NCBI GenBank assembly: GCA_002716355.1
Contig: PBAU01000007.1
Location: 1 to 20,266, forward strand
Origin: a bacterium
Lineage (GTDB): Bacteria; UBP7; UBA6624
Direction of reading: 5' to 3'
Length of the DNA stretch: 20,266 nucleotides
The translations under genes were made by a program, and so were the position numbers. Positions 14,183 through 19,966 of this stretch are shown here, piece after piece (within the stretch, counting starts at the first letter, position 1; each line of letters opens with the position of its first letter). The notes beneath the pieces are model-generated. The model saw nothing but the letters and a program-made list of their open reading frames with translations. It did no database searches and was not told the DNA's origin.

Positions 14183-14433
14183 TATTTTATTCCTGGTAAA
14201 TTCTGTTTTCTTTTTTCAAGAATCTCTTTAAGGTTTGGGTGAACCCTTTGCATGCATTTGCCATGTTTGTAAGGTGCAAGGTATTCCTCGTTGCATTCTG
14301 GACAGGTTCTTTGTCTGTACTCAACTCCACCGTTATATTTATCCCAAATGAAATTGGATTTTTTCTTATATTTTCCAGAACTAACTGGGCTGTCCAAAAC
14401 TAAAAACCTGCCTGTTGATGTCCTACAGGGCAA
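14182..14433 (-). CDS. Small Cys-motif protein (hypothetical)
   Basis: This 83-residue ORF from ATG 14433 overlaps the end of the secreted protein gene by 34 bases. A TTG at 14397, just past that stop, would give 71 residues and no overlap. The N-terminal half is Lys/Tyr-rich. The centre has CPECNEEYLAPYKHGKC (C45, C48, H60, C62), which could be a small zinc ribbon-like site, and the rest is basic. I do not recognise the family. The stop TAG ends on the first base of tRNA-Arg, so processing of the tRNA would remove or expose the end of this message. Coding is plausible but not proven. Confidence 0.5.
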   Translation of the reverse strand: MPCRTSTGRFLVLDSPVSSGKYKKKSNFIWDKYNGGVEYRQRTCPECNEEYLAPYKHGKCMQRVHPNLKEILEKRKQNLPGIK

Positions 14434-15617
14434 ACAGAGAAACTCAGACCTGCCGCTGCAACTGATCCAGCTGAAGACCCAAAGCCTAATTGAGCAGTTT
14501 CTTCACATATTAATATCTGAAGACCTTGCTGGATTATTTCTCTTCTTTCCTGAGCTTGCCTATATGCTTTTGTTTCTCCTGTTGGAATTTGGTTTTCGTA
14601 AACTTTCATATTGTTTTCAAGAGTGACAAGAACGTCGATTAATTTGTCGGTTTCAGGATTAATGTATGCTCTTCCACTTAACTCTAGCGTTCCAATGAAA
14701 TTCCTATCAATTCTCCATTCATTTTTTTCACTTACTTCATTACCATCAAATCTTGCAAAACCAAACATGTCGATAACGATTGAAGGTTCCAGTCTGTATG
14801 CTTTGAGGTTTGGAAGACTTAGCATTGTTCCTCCAGAAACAATACCTTGAACAAATCTCACATCCCTAATTGGAAGTCTATATTCAATATCTATTTTTTG
14901 AAGAGTTCTTAAGCCAGGAATTGTGAGGTAGACAGGTCTAACCCAAGTTTCACCTAATTGGACTGATCTGTCAGGGAATCTCAATATATGAAAGTATTCC
15001 ATTATTTGTTGAAGTGATACATTGGCTCTTTCTCTCTCATTTTGAACAAGTTCTAATGGAATTCCTTGACTAGTTAAAACCTCACCATTTTTATTTCTTA
15101 TTAAAGTATGTTCCTCTTGAAGTAAATCAATTACTGAATCTTCAATTGCAGTGCCTTCAGAACTTCCAGAACCTCCTCCTCCACCAACTCCCATGCCCAT
15201 TCTTAAATCTGCACTTCGACCTTCGTTTCCGCCGTCGTCACCATCGTCGCCACCACCATCGTCGCCACCGCCATCGTCGCCACCGCCATCGCCACCAGCA
15301 CCACCTGAAATTTCAAACTCTTGTCTCTGGTAGGAATAATCATCAAATCTTATTTTTGACCATGTTAAATTGAATTCTTCACTCTCATGACTCTCGGAAA
15401 GAACTGCTCTTGTGAAACCTTCAAGGCTTTCAAATTCACCTGGAGCCCATATTTGACCACTGGATCCAGCTTGGATGATATACCTGTGTGGAGTTGCATA
15501 CATCGGTATAGGAGGATCATAGGAAAGTTTAATAAAGTCAGATTTTGTTGACATTGAAGAAGCAACTAAAAGTACAGCAGGAACCAAGAAAAAAAGTCTA
15601 ATGCCTTTTATTTTCAT
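14400..15617 (-). CDS. Exported protein with Gly/Asp-rich linker (hypothetical)
   Basis: The 405 residues begin with a Sec signal peptide (1-22, KIKGIRLFFLVPAVLLVASSM). Residues about 23-103 form one segment. A linker GGAGGDGGGDD... (105-133) made of GGGDD repeats follows, then a glycine run (141-152). A larger C-terminal part (about 155-370) is rich in beta-strand pattern, with LGETWVRPVYLTIPGL, YRLPIRDVRFVQGIVSGGT and IDRNFIGTLELSGRAYINPETDKLIDV. The last stretch resembles lipid- or peptide-binding beta barrels of exported proteins (DUF-type), but I cannot name a family. The GGGDD array lacks the nonapeptide spacing of RTX calcium repeats. The gene is 51 bases after the xylanase gene and may be co-transcribed with it. 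Confidence 0.75.
   Translation of the reverse strand: MKIKGIRLFFLVPAVLLVASSMSTKSDFIKLSYDPPIPMYATPHRYIIQAGSSGQIWAPGEFESLEGFTRAVLSESHESEEFNLTWSKIRFDDYSYQRQEFEISGGAGGDGGGDDGGGDDGGGDDGDDGGNEGRSADLRMGMGVGGGGGSGSSEGTAIEDSVIDLLQEEHTLIRNKNGEVLTSQGIPLELVQNERERANVSLQQIMEYFHILRFPDRSVQLGETWVRPVYLTIPGLRTLQKIDIEYRLPIRDVRFVQGIVSGGTMLSLPNLKAYRLEPSIVIDMFGFARFDGNEVSEKNEWRIDRNFIGTLELSGRAYINPETDKLIDVLVTLENNMKVYENQIPTGETKAYRQAQERREIIQQGLQILICEETAQLGFGSSAGSVAAAGLSFSVCPVGHQQAGF
15246..15290 (-). repeat. 15-bp tandem repeat coding GGGDD
   Basis: Three 15-bp units (plus-strand GTCGCCACCGCCATC, first copy with one change) lie in the linker of the exported protein, with partial copies on both sides. It is G+C-rich against an AT-rich background, and like the array at 1-69 its unit is a multiple of three bases. 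It gives a long antisense His/Arg ORF that is not a gene. Confidence 0.85.
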
Positions 15618-15668: not shown

Positions 15669-16775
15669 CTAATTTCCCTTGAGTCCTTTTATTAAACCTC
15701 TATGGGAAATTTTTAATTCGTAATTTGAATTGTATAAAGAGGGATATTCATATTTATTATTGTGAAATTTTAACAACCAACTATCATTGTCTCTCATTCC
15801 CCAAAATGTCATTCCAAATTGTTGATTTTTTGGAATAGACATGTATATTTCGGCTATTTCTTTATATTTCTCCTCTTGAATCAATGCCTTTTCGTAATTA
15901 AGTCTTTTAAATGATTTTTCTTTGTTAACAGTTATGTCAATTTCTGAAAAATGAATCAATAATCCTGATTTAATAATTTTTTCTAGATTTTGCTTAATTG
16001 TTTCTTTTTTTGGATTTAGATGATCTATATGCATTTGGAAACCTATTCCATCAATTGGGATATTTTTTTCTTGAAAATTTTTAATCATTTTTTGCACTTT
16101 TTTAATTTTTGAAGGATAACTTTCAAGGTTGTAGTCGTTGTAGAAGAGTTTTACGTCCGGATCTGCTTCTCTTGCCCATTTAAAACACTTGCTCACATAA
16201 TCTTCACCAATTTTTTTTCTAAAGATACTATTTTCTGCTCCTGTAGTGAAAGCTTCATTGACTACATCCCAACCTTCAACAATTGAAACTTCTTCTCCAT
16301 CAATCCTTACTTTTTCTTTTGCAAAGTGGGAAACTGTATTTTGTATATAGTCTTTTATAAGACTCTCAAAGTCTTCATCGGTTCCTTTGTAATTTTTTAG
16401 CCATTTCGGTATTGAGCTATGCCAAATTAAGGCATGACCGAAGACGCGAAAATTGTTTTCTTTTGCAAATTTGACAATCTCATCACCATCACTAAAGTCA
16501 TAAATGCCTGGAGCTTTAAAGATGTTTGCCATTTTCATTTGATTTTCTGCTGTCATGCTATTGAAGTCTCTTTTGAGCGTTGAAACAAACAGGGGGTTTG
16601 ATTTTAGCTTCTCAGAAGAAACAACATTGCCTATAGGAAAAGAGGCGATGTTTTTTATTGACTCTTGAGTTTTGTAGGTTGTGCCACTTTCGTATGATGG
16701 ATTTAGCAAAAAGCTTACAAGGAAGAAAAGAAAAGAAAAGTTTTTAATTATGAAAATTCTCCAGTATTTCTTCAC
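15669..16775 (-). CDS. Endo-beta-1,4-xylanase, glycoside hydrolase family 10
   Basis: The 368-residue exported enzyme hydrolyses internal beta-1,4-xylosidic bonds. Residues 1-30 are a basic then hydrophobic signal segment (FSFLFFLVSFLL). The GH10 barrel shows FNSMTAENQMKMA (71-83), GHALIWHSSIPKW (113-125), the acid/base E174 in WDVVNEAF, LFYNDYNLES, GFQMHIDH and the nucleophile E278 in HFSEIDI. Both catalytic Glu and most sugar-binding residues are present, so it should be active. It has no carbohydrate-binding module. The start is GTG 16775: no ATG or TTG lies at the start of the signal segment. The start sits one base after the encoded CCA of tRNA-Ala, so there is no room for a normal leader. 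Confidence 0.93.
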   Translation of the reverse strand: MKKYWRIFIIKNFSFLFFLVSFLLNPSYESGTTYKTQESIKNIASFPIGNVVSSEKLKSNPLFVSTLKRDFNSMTAENQMKMANIFKAPGIYDFSDGDEIVKFAKENNFRVFGHALIWHSSIPKWLKNYKGTDEDFESLIKDYIQNTVSHFAKEKVRIDGEEVSIVEGWDVVNEAFTTGAENSIFRKKIGEDYVSKCFKWAREADPDVKLFYNDYNLESYPSKIKKVQKMIKNFQEKNIPIDGIGFQMHIDHLNPKKETIKQNLEKIIKSGLLIHFSEIDITVNKEKSFKRLNYEKALIQEEKYKEIAEIYMSIPKNQQFGMTFWGMRDNDSWLLKFHNNKYEYPSLYNSNYELKISHRGLIKGLKGN

Positions 16776-16853: not shown

Positions 16854-17198
16854 TTAAGATTCGTAAACTATCAAGCATCCTTCCACTAATCCATCTATAT
16901 CCCAATAATCCCTTGCTGCTGGAGTCATGAGATGAATTATCGTGTCACCCAAATCTAACAAAGTCCATTCTGATTCAGCTTTAGACCCTTCAGGGATAAT
17001 TCCATTGAAGCCATTTTTTTTCAACCATATTTTTGCATTTTCCCTCAATGTTCTTAAATGCGTTTTGTTTTGTGCTGTGGCAATTATGAAATTTTTTGTC
17101 CATGTTATTTTTTTTTCAACATTGATTAGTTTCACCTCTTCAGCAAGTTCTTCAACTAGCATAAGGCTTATTTCTTTTGGTTTGGCGTTCTTCGTCAT
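16854..17198 (-). CDS. rsfS: Ribosomal silencing factor RsfS
   Basis: The 114-residue RsfS/Iojap protein binds L14 on the 50S subunit and blocks joining of subunits when nutrients fall. The diagnostic core is GSKAESEWTLLDLGDTIIHL and the following MTPAARDYWDIDGL (71-104), with the helix THLRTLRENAKIWLKK before it. The length is normal. ATG 17198 is three bases after the LCP stop. Next to nadD it has the placement seen in many bacteria, where nadD, rsfS and the L21-L27-obg block travel together. Confidence 0.95.
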   Translation of the reverse strand: MTKNAKPKEISLMLVEELAEEVKLINVEKKITWTKNFIIATAQNKTHLRTLRENAKIWLKKNGFNGIIPEGSKAESEWTLLDLGDTIIHLMTPAARDYWDIDGLVEGCLIVYES

Positions 17199-17201
17199 TG
17201 T

Positions 17202-18023
17202 TTATTGGTTTATATTTTTTGCAACCCATTGATTCAATTCGCTCATTTCAGGAGACCAGAAGGGACCCATGAATTTACCTGGGAGTATTTCTGTTGTTGG
17301 AGCTTCACCAAGTGTTCTTATCCCGAGTATTAAGGCTTCTTCAATTTTTAAGTTAGTTTCAATGTTTTTTAAGAAATTTTGTATTATGAATATTTTTTTT
17401 AATGTTGCTGTTTTGTGAAATTTTTTTAAAATAGCGTGGGCTAATTTCTGTTGTCTTTGTATTCGTCCTATATCCCCCAATGCATCACTTCTGAACCTTG
17501 CATAAAGCAAAGATTGACGACCATTTAAGTTATGTATGCCAGGTGAAAAGTCAATCAATAGGTTTTGAGATTTGTCTTCATATTTCATTTCTTTTTCTAT
17601 ATGTATTTTTATTCCACCCAAACCATCTATTAGCTGCTCCAGGTTTTTAAAATTTATAACTAGGTATTTGTCTACTGGAATGTTTGCTAACGAGGTTAAA
17701 GCCCCTCTTAAACCTGTTATGTTGCCATTTTCATGCCAACTATGGTTGATCCTGTTTGTTCCATTTTCAGTTTCAACTAAAGTGTCTCTAGGTATTGAAA
17801 GTATTTTTGGGGAGCCCCCTTCTTTAGGTAACGCTGTTAAAAGAATAGTATCAGGGTTTATATCTTCTTTTGATTGGTCTAGCCCGACAATTAAAATTGT
17901 TTCAGATCTTTTTTGTTTGTTTTTTTTGAAGCTTTCTGGAAATTCAAAATACGAAAGAGTCAAAAAGGTCAGTATGGCAAAAAGCATACTTGAAAAAGTT
18001 AAGTTTAAATACCTTCTAATCAC
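17202..18023 (-). CDS. LytR-CpsA-Psr (LCP) family protein
   Basis: The 273 residues have an N-terminal membrane anchor (about 8-26) and an extracytoplasmic LCP domain. Seen are ILIVGLDQ (43-50), D58 in INPDTILL, SIPRDT (76-81) with R79 and D80, RINHSWHENG, the GLGGIKI strand, and LLYARFRSDALGDIGRIQRQQ (172-192 region) with conserved Arg and Asp. LCP enzymes transfer undecaprenyl-linked glycopolymers to peptidoglycan or other acceptors. The usual C-terminal LytR_C domain is absent. The start is GTG 18023, overlapping the nadD end by eight bases. Its place between nadD and rsfS suggests co-regulation with growth genes rather than with a polysaccharide locus. Confidence 0.9.
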   Translation of the reverse strand: MIRRYLNLTFSSMLFAILTFLTLSYFEFPESFKKNKQKRSETILIVGLDQSKEDINPDTILLTALPKEGGSPKILSIPRDTLVETENGTNRINHSWHENGNITGLRGALTSLANIPVDKYLVINFKNLEQLIDGLGGIKIHIEKEMKYEDKSQNLLIDFSPGIHNLNGRQSLLYARFRSDALGDIGRIQRQQKLAHAILKKFHKTATLKKIFIIQNFLKNIETNLKIEEALILGIRTLGEAPTTEILPGKFMGPFWSPEMSELNQWVAKNINQ

Positions 18024-18579
18024 TGTAAAGACCGTTTGTTTTTATTTGTTGTTTTATTTTTTTTGGCACCATTTCATCAATTGATTCCTTAAGTTTAATT
18101 TTATTTCTTATTTTCGATGATGATATTTTAACAATTTTGTTTCTAAGGAGAGTGCCTTCTTTTTCTTTTTTTGAATTTGTTCTTTCTGCTATCACCATGG
18201 TGCATATTTGAATTAATTCTTTGTAATCTTTCCATTTTTCAATTTTTCTTAAATTATCATCACCAAGCAGTAATGATATTTTTTGATTTTTGTGTATTTT
18301 TTTTATAAATTTAACCTGGTCAATAGCATAGCAAGTTTTTTTTGTTTTGCCTTCAAAATCAGACACTTTTACATTTTTGATCCCCAATGTTCCTAATTTA
18401 CATAATTGCAATCTTTTACTGTAAGGTGCATGAATTTTCTTGCCTACCGGTGATTTGAATGTAGGAATTACATATATAGGGTTATATTTTTTTTCCTCCG
18501 CCATTTTGATTAAGTGTAGATGACCGTTGTGAAACGGATCAAAAGCTCCTCCAAAAATCAATGGTTTCAATTTGGCCAT
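18016..18579 (-). CDS. nadD: Nicotinate-nucleotide adenylyltransferase NadD
   Basis: The 187-residue enzyme joins nicotinate mononucleotide to ATP in NAD synthesis. The nucleotidyltransferase motif GGAFDPFHNGH (10-20) is intact, as are VIPTFKSPVGKK, LLLGDDNLRKIEKWKDYKEL and the C-terminal SSSKIRNKI (the ISSTxIR motif). The length is slightly short of the common 190-220. The start ATG 18579 lies 13 bases inside the obg gene, and the end overlaps the LCP start, so the three are translationally linked. Confidence 0.96.
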   Translation of the reverse strand: MAKLKPLIFGGAFDPFHNGHLHLIKMAEEKKYNPIYVIPTFKSPVGKKIHAPYSKRLQLCKLGTLGIKNVKVSDFEGKTKKTCYAIDQVKFIKKIHKNQKISLLLGDDNLRKIEKWKDYKELIQICTMVIAERTNSKKEKEGTLLRNKIVKISSSKIRNKIKLKESIDEMVPKKIKQQIKTNGLYSD

Positions 18580-19403
18580 TTTTCGATCTCGGTAATGTTT
18601 TCTGAAAGGATTGGTATTTTTGACAATCCATAAGTGAATATCTTTGATTTTGTTGGAATGTTTTTTTGAATCTCTTTAAATTCTTGATTTTTAAAAGATC
18701 CGATAAAAACAATATTCTTTGCGTTTCTTATGTGGTGCAACCATTTTTTTTCTTGATCGAAGTTTGGTATCAGTAATATTTTTTCATTTTCTTTTAGCTT
18801 GTTTACCTTAACGCCTATTATTGGATAGTTTGGCACCATATTTTCATACCTTCTTCCTGTAAGTTTTTCATGAACATCTAAACAGAGGGTATCATTTGAA
18901 ATGATTGCAGTATCGCAGGGTATAAAGTAGTTCATTTTCAAACTTTTTTCATCACCCATTTCTCCTTGTGTGTGTTTTCTTGGAGATCTGTTAACAGAGC
19001 TCGCGAAAGATCTATTACCTTTTCCTCCGCGGCCTCCTTTTAAGGTGAATTCTTGACCATGGCCGTTTAATTTTTTTATTGTCTTGTCATCCATATCTTT
19101 AAGAACTGTTCCAATTGGAACTTTCAACACTAGTGTTTTTCCATTCTTTCCACTTTTTTTGTTTTTTCCACCGGGTTGACCATCTTCAGCCTTGAAGGGT
19201 TTTATTTTTTTGAATTTGTAGAGATCGAATATTGAGGATTCAGCAGTGATCTTCAAATCTCCACCTTTGCCACCATTACCTCCATCAGGACCCATGCTTG
19301 CTCTGAATTTTTGCCTCAGGAAGGAAGTCTTACCATCGCCCCCAGCCCCAGCGATAAAATGAGCTTTAGCCGAATCTACAAATGAACTAATGAATTTACT
19401 CAG
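18567..19403 (-). CDS. Obg-like protein with a degenerate GTPase domain
   Basis: The frame is open from after the TAG at 19409-19407. The N-terminal family sequence [20 protein letters not shown] lies before the first ATG (19295), so the true start is a rare codon: CTG 19403 (278 residues, overlapping rpmA) or ATT 19391. The glycine-rich Obg domain is complete (about 1-155 from CTG): [42 protein letters not shown]. Downstream, where Obg has its P-loop GFPNAGKST, DxPG and NKxD, there is only [10 protein letters not shown]..., NYPIIGVKV, a WLHHIR echo of FLRHI and GLSKIP. All nucleotide-binding motifs are gone, and the domain is about 120 rather than 170 or more residues. It lies in the canonical place after rplU-rpmA. 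A divergent ribosome factor or a decaying gene are both possible. Confidence 0.85.
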
Positions 19404-19650
19404 AATCTATTTGTGCCACTTTTTTATTGCCTCTTTTTTTGATGTATTTGACTACTCCATCATCTAAAGCAAATAAAGTGAAATCTTTTCCAATACCAAC
19501 ATTTTTTCCAGGATGAATGCTTTTTCCTCTTTGTCTAACTAGAACATTTCCAGCTGCAACTTTTTGACCATCTGAGCATTTGATCCCAAGACGTTTTCCT
19601 GCAGTTGATCTTAAATTTTTAGTACTACCTTGACCTGTTTTGTGTGCCAT
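19396..19650 (-). CDS. rpmA: 50S ribosomal protein L27
   Basis: The 84 residues follow the L27 pattern: [12 protein letters not shown] at the start, [43 protein letters not shown]27 lies near the peptidyl transferase centre, with its N-terminus reaching toward the P-site tRNA. There is no N-terminal extension of the kind cleaved in Firmicutes. ATG 19650 is one base after the rplU stop, and its ribosome binding site (GAGGG) is within the last codons of rplU. The end overlaps the CTG candidate start of the Obg-like gene. Confidence 0.98.
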
Positions 19651-19651
19651 A

Positions 19652-19966
19652 TCAACCCTCGATTTTTAATACCTTTAATTGAGTGTATTCTTGTCTATGC
19701 CCAATTATTCGTTTGTAATTTTTTTTAGGTTTGTATTTTTGAACCCTTACTTTTTTGTCTTTTACATGAGAAAGGATTTGACATGTTACTTTTGCTTTTT
19801 CCACAAGTGGTTTCCCAATTTTGACCTTGTCTTTATTGATTGTCATTAAGACTTCTTTGAAAATAACTTTTTTCCCTTTCTCTTCGTCTATCTTGTCTAC
19901 AAATACAACATCTCCAGAAGAAATTAACATTTGTGTTCCTGATGCTTTAATAATTGCTCTTTTCAT
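19652..19966 (-). CDS. rplU: 50S ribosomal protein L21
   Basis: The 104 residues match L21: the N-terminal [47 protein letters not shown], and the characteristic [25 protein letters not shown]. It binds 23S rRNA and is needed for 50S assembly. ATG 19966 has a GAAGG site about eight bases upstream. It is the first gene of the rplU-rpmA-obg-nadD-LCP-rsfS cluster. Confidence 0.98.

Follow-up and report, generated by a model that had tools for sequence, protein, structure and literature searches.

Obg counts as an essential and almost universal GTPase, and in bacteria it normally works as a GTP-driven switch that finishes the assembly of the large ribosomal subunit. The locus described here, from a bacterium of the phylum UBP7, encodes an Obg protein in which the motifs of the GTPase are missing, and it raises the question of whether the essential act of Obg needs GTP at all.

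The short Obg and its locus

The DNA analysed, hereafter the window, is one entire contig of 20,266 bases from an 86.6% complete metagenome-assembled genome (1.26 Mb, 16 contigs). UBA7824, of the same genus, is its closest relative in the collections, and a third UBP7 genome, from another genus of the same family, completes the sample; these three metagenome assemblies, designated G000 (the window's own), G001 (UBA7824) and G002, are 87, 62 and 78% complete, respectively. The features needed for the argument are the following:

18567..19403 (-): short obg, 278 residues plus stop, an open frame from CTG (19403) to the stop codon
18930..19379 (-): complete Obg (glycine-rich) domain, residues 9-158, by Pfam PF01018 and conserved columns
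18570..18929 (-): pseudo-G domain, residues 159-278, as judged by hhalign with shuffle controls, column counts and dN/dS
19396..19650 (-): rpmA (bL27), directly upstream of obg, identified by sequence and position
19652..19966 (-): rplU (bL21), identified by sequence and position
18016..18579 (-): nadD, whose first 13 bases lie within the end of obg, in the same order in UBA7824 and G002
17202..18023 (-): LytR/CpsA/Psr-like gene, next in the cluster, in an order conserved in UBA7824 and G002
16854..17198 (-): rsfS-like ribosome silencing factor, at the end of the conserved cluster, identified by sequence without a profile search

The order rplU-rpmA-obg-nadD, followed downstream by the LytR-like and rsfS-like genes, is kept in the three UBP7 genomes, in agreement with the standard rplU-rpmA-obg position given in the initial annotation. 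Because of the overlap between nadD and obg, there is no room for a G domain at its normal place. At the other end of the gene, no ATG, GTG or TTG precedes the conserved domain in the obg frame of G000 and G001, and the first canonical in-frame start, the ATG at 19295, would cost the Obg domain 36 residues. The first usable codon is a CTG overlapping the rpmA stop (CTGAGTAA), which is the sole candidate common to both genomes; the same CTG geometry is found in G002 (CTGAATAG), where a TTG a few codons upstream is also possible (start regions: window 19383-19403, minus strand; L032 4750-4770, minus strand; L033 4166-4190, plus strand). Such a start of the short obg is unusual, and is perhaps read by coupling to rpmA.

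In the three genomes the cluster is adjoined by a gene for a Gly/Asp repeat protein (GGDDGGGDDGG; window 14400-15617, minus strand), whose repeat stretch varies in length among them. Between this gene and rsfS, a secreted-looking protein that by eye resembles a GH10 endoxylanase (window 15669-16775, minus strand) is encoded in G000 and G001, and was not seen there in G002.

The Obg domain had been described as intact, and profile searches bear this out. The Pfam family GTP1_OBG (PF01018) matched residues 9-158 over model positions 1-152 of 155, with 143-144 bits, whereas the NCBIfam Obg models were matched over their first ~163 of 329 positions only (149-153 bits against cut-offs of 280-300). 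For the TIGR02729 equivalog the short Obg reached 148.7 bits against a cut-off of 280.25, and none of the three UBP7 genomes passed. The UBP7 proteins were aligned with 42 ordinary Obg proteins drawn from diverse genomes, and columns conserved in at least 95% of the latter were taken as invariant. In the Obg domain, 28 of 29 such columns are kept in G000, 27 in G001 and all 29 in G002; another reference set of Obg proteins gave the same column picture. The first ~165 residues of the E. coli ObgE row of the alignment agree with the solved structure. Relative to ObgE, loop 3 (NRSPR, with R136 and R139) and K27 are kept in the three UBP7 proteins, the K31 position is occupied by S in G000 and G001 and by R in G002, and the R76/R82 positions by N/N in G000 and G001 and by K/R in G002; further basic residues lie nearby. 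Mutation of K27/K31, R76/R82 and R136/R139 of ObgE impairs binding to the 50S subunit (Feng et al. 2014, PMC4028186). In ObgE, K31 reaches the end of the P-site tRNA. The UBP7 protein shares with the Obg/CgtA GTPases (TIGR02729; ObgE) the Obg domain with its invariant glycines and loop 3, the operon position and the single copy, but differs from them in having no G1, G3 or G4 motif and a C-terminal part of ~120 instead of ~170 residues. By origin it is an Obg, but the lack of the defining motifs places it outside the family of Obg GTPases.

The C-terminal tail and the constraint upon it

The absence of the GTPase motifs, already reported in the initial annotation, was confirmed on alignment. 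In the ~120-residue tail of G000, the places of the P-loop GxPNxGKS/T, of DxPG and of NKxD are taken by SNDTLCLD, LLIPN and GLSKIP, respectively; the P-loop is absent from all three UBP7 proteins, and no match of the short Obg to a G-domain family was found in a Pfam search up to E 10. Only 5 of the 24 invariant columns of the G domain are kept in G000 and G001, compared with 14 in G002. A comparison by hhalign of the three tails with Obg G domains gave an E value of 3.4e-5 and a score of 34.2, against a maximum of 21.4 for 60 column shuffles and 15.3 for the reversed tail, in an alignment running from the first strand to just beyond FLRH. The G002 tail is the less worn one, with GLGxxFLxHxxR kept and the P-loop gone: this copy still reads GLGASFLHHGHRAE, and it has GLGASFLHHGHRAERVVWVG where Obg has GLGxxFLRHxERTxxLLxVVD. 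Taken with the profile match, the less worn copy supports the earlier proposal that the G domain decayed in place rather than being cut off. As regards the weak echoes of GTPase motifs that had been pointed out, those of switch I and FLRH are upheld by the hhalign match, but that of NKxD (GLSKIP), though correctly placed, is unsupported alone. On these sequence comparisons, the tail is a worn-down Obg GTPase domain, whose GTP-binding motifs were lost before the UBP7 genera split and whose other parts wore later in G000 and G001, and we infer that the short Obg is independent of GTP.

Structure prediction was too weak to establish the fold of the tail independently. An AlphaFold2 model from five rows (pLDDT 48, tail 55-71) showed the Ras-like order of elements, and Foldseek matched it to Obg with an E value of 5e-7, both results being partly circular as the alignment held Obg rows; with two UBP7 rows alone the pLDDT was 34, too low to be informative.

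The tail is as constrained as the rest of the protein. Between the two species of the window's genus (G000 and G001), the dN/dS ratio by NG86 was 0.106/0.839 = 0.13 for the whole gene, 0.112/0.875 = 0.13 for the Obg domain, 0.097/0.782 = 0.12 for the tail and 0.070/0.783 = 0.09 for residues 159-239, a low value for the tail that indicates that it is not decaying at present. The neighbouring genes gave 0.135/0.658 (0.21) for nadD, 0.049/0.724 for the LytR-like gene and 0.049/0.857 for the rsfS-like gene, so that the constraint on obg is no weaker than that on nadD. The gene had been described as held in this operon, and the purifying selection seen in both halves agrees with the word. Between species the tail is conserved at 81% and the Obg domain at 80%, and residues of the tail (FxPCDT, HxxTGR and LHH) are conserved in both genera.

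Two checks suggested along with the initial annotation have a bearing here. The same short form is found in the related genomes, that is, in three of three UBP7 genomes from two genera, and no second full-length Obg was found in G000, or likewise in G001 and G002. Every one of these genomes contains a single PF01018 match, and a search with the full Obg model revealed neither a second Obg nor a standalone Obg-type G domain in any of them, its next matches being other GTPases, with HflX and MnmE first.

In none of the three UBP7 genomes was Era or EngB/YsxC identified among the matches to MMR_HSR1, so that these genomes seem to have fewer ribosome-assembly GTPases even apart from Obg. The other Obg-class protein, YchF (L070 1495-2541, plus strand, in G000; L063 in G001; L082 1495-2541, plus strand, in G002), keeps its P-loop and reaches 177-179 bits against a cut-off of 279. 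It appears to be without the canonical switch II stretch DxAGLVxGAxxGxGLGNxFL, and as far as its sequence goes YchF appears to be a second anomaly of nucleotide handling in the UBP7 lineage.

A second phylum with Obg proteins lacking the GTPase motifs

A census of 240 genomes at least 95% complete, carried out with the full-length Obg model, found 228 of them above the TIGR02729 cut-off. One of those below it, G390 (96% complete), matched with an E value of 6.7e-45, as would a lone Obg domain, even though 382 residues are encoded in its Obg frame, and no full-length Obg with GTPase motifs was found in this genome. Among the other low scorers, those inspected through their assembly or relatives were explained by an absent Obg, contig ends or N-runs. 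P-loop, DxPG and NKxD are missing from the Obg proteins of G390, G282, G018 and G158, which belong to one phylum, and in a sample of 10 genomes from 4 families of this phylum they are missing from the eight Obg proteins recovered, from eight genomes and 3 families (loci L098, L102, L105, L108 and L123-L126). In two families (f17 and f216) nadD adjoins obg. The pseudo-G domain of these proteins is nearly full length and contains, among other motifs, LRKPRxxxxExxFRRYxVAFLPF and LxHLYxxxxVV. That it is related to the G domain of Obg is beyond doubt, as measured by hhalign (E 5.7e-28 over 173 columns).

A pseudo-G type common to UBP7 and the second phylum was looked for but not found, as a profile comparison of the two gave an E value of 0.2 and no special likeness. 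In an RpoB tree each group is monophyletic with full support and both lie on long branches, and a single clade uniting them is not rejected (p-AU 0.63), which makes one loss or two both possible. In the two phyla, 27-29 of the 29 invariant columns of the Obg domain are kept in each of the 11 GTPase-less proteins. An intact P-loop is present in none of them; three G-domain residues are common to all, namely P196, P215 (the proline of DxPG) and H234 (the histidine of FLRH). Further searches with the short Obg found no relatives among viral contigs, and among genome contigs only the sibling UBA7824 and three ordinary Obg proteins.

The initial annotation knew of no described example of such a protein. 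The open-access literature searched yielded no account of an Obg lacking the GTPase motifs, nor was a GTPase-less Obg described in open-access papers on pseudoGTPases in ribosome biogenesis or on UBP7, but the UBP7 form is not unique, as the second phylum has a longer one. Both the GTPase-less Obg of UBP7 and the longer pseudo-G form of the second phylum thus appear to be new. The mitochondrial proteins GTPBP5 (MTG2) and GTPBP10, found by sequence and fold comparison, are similar in having an Obg domain, which acts at the peptidyl-transferase centre of large-subunit intermediates; unlike the short Obg, both are known as proteins that bind GTP and whose G domain is normal. ObgE mutants deficient in nucleotide binding are also nucleotide-free Obg proteins and are reported to support viability (PMC6982127), but they are full-length laboratory point mutants with an otherwise normal G domain, whereas the short Obg is natural, old and shortened. 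A departure from a 50S GTPase thought to be indispensable has likewise been reported for part of the Candidate Phyla Radiation, where, according to the passages of the paper considered here, obgE was lost and in some classes the whole gene is gone (PMC12641178); there the entire gene disappeared, whereas in UBP7 the ribosome-binding half was kept and only the GTPase lost, and those passages make no mention of a loss of the GTPase alone.

Proposed mode of action and its alternatives

The short Obg is probably an orthologue of Obg that lost GTP binding and is still in use, with the pseudo-G domain serving as a fixed docking piece without switching. More generally, the sequences of all these forms most likely describe GTP-independent factors of peptidyl-transferase-centre assembly or of anti-association, docked by a dead G domain. 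How the short Obg would bind the ribosome, act and be released we infer as follows. As a constitutive factor, it would bind the peptidyl-transferase centre, hold or check its shape and keep the 30S subunit off, while the pseudo-G domain would dock, probably on the side of the stalk base and sarcin-ricin loop where the G domain of ObgE sits. Release would come with maturation of the centre or through displacement by another factor, without hydrolysis of GTP. Obg would also no longer mediate any regulation by GTP/GDP or ppGpp, despite the presence of a RelA/SpoT protein.

Work with ObgE gives this proposal several points of contact. Within the peptidyl-transferase centre, ObgE uses its Obg domain to mimic the acceptor arm of the tRNA of the A site, and for anti-association a construct made up of the Obg domain and the G domain is enough (PMC4028186). 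For the ObgE-50S structure, the legend to Figure S6 of PMC4028186 treats switch II along with the stalk base, or GTPase-associated centre, a link through which P196, P215 and H234 may have been kept for docking. E. coli remains viable with ObgE mutants that cannot bind nucleotide (Dewachter et al. 2019, PMC6982127), which fits a GTP-independent short Obg. On the other hand, GTP or GMPPNP raises the affinity of ObgE for the 50S subunit (PMC4028186), so that a nucleotide-free form might bind it poorly, and the replacement of K31 and R76/R82 in G000 and G001 also counts against a 50S-binding reading.

Other explanations have to be weighed against this one. The GTPase role may have shifted, so that the short Obg works with, or is released by, Der, HflX, RbgA, EF-G or the divergent YchF in a step that is still GTP-dependent. 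Der, HflX, RbgA/YlqF, LepA, TypA and two EF-G-like proteins are indeed present in UBP7, and the roles of ObgE and EngA/Der overlap in in vitro reconstitution (PMC13278734), but none of the candidate partners carries a fused or extra domain hinting at an Obg role and a standalone Obg-type G domain is absent from the UBP7 genomes, which leaves such a shift unlikely. Rather doubtful is a new job, in which the Obg domain would bind RNA or protein, the reworked tail something else, and the role in ribosome assembly would have been dropped: a tail conserved as much as the Obg domain, with its own residues common to both genera, would suit it, but obg stays in a ribosomal-protein operon, nearly all invariants of its Obg domain are kept, and no replacement for Obg exists elsewhere in the genome.

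It is very improbable that the gene is on its way out, its GTPase lost first and the remainder decaying or kept by chance. The few G-domain residues left in G000 and G001 could be read in this manner, but the reading is refuted by dN/dS values of 0.12-0.13 in both halves at a dS of 0.8, which together with a frame open in three genomes and two genera also rule out a simple pseudogene. An artefact of assembly or binning, or a full-length Obg in those parts of the genomes that the assemblies lack, is hardly credible, even with the UBP7 genomes as incomplete as they are. Assembly error is ruled out, as three assemblies agree in structure and all have nadD at its place downstream; a second Obg would have been missed in all three genomes with a chance of about 1%, if the gaps are independent, and G390 of the second phylum, at 96% completeness, is also without a full-length Obg.

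Returning to the preferred reading, a constitutive Obg docked by its pseudo-G domain, we lean slightly towards its extension to both groups, whereby UBP7 and the second phylum, independently or jointly, would have turned Obg into a constitutive, nucleotide-free assembly factor whose dead G domain would be no more than a docking surface. Both phyla seem to present a natural removal of the switch, in which the ribosome-touching half was kept and the GTP-binding parts were all lost, and P196, P215 and H234 stand out as the few G-domain residues that would matter beyond nucleotide binding. The natural GTPase-less forms of two phyla would answer the evolutionary side of the question of whether the essential act of Obg needs GTP, and they are ready-made material for a direct test of that need. 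If the proposal is true, the GTPase cycle of Obg and its sensing of ppGpp would be dispensable for the conserved job of the protein.
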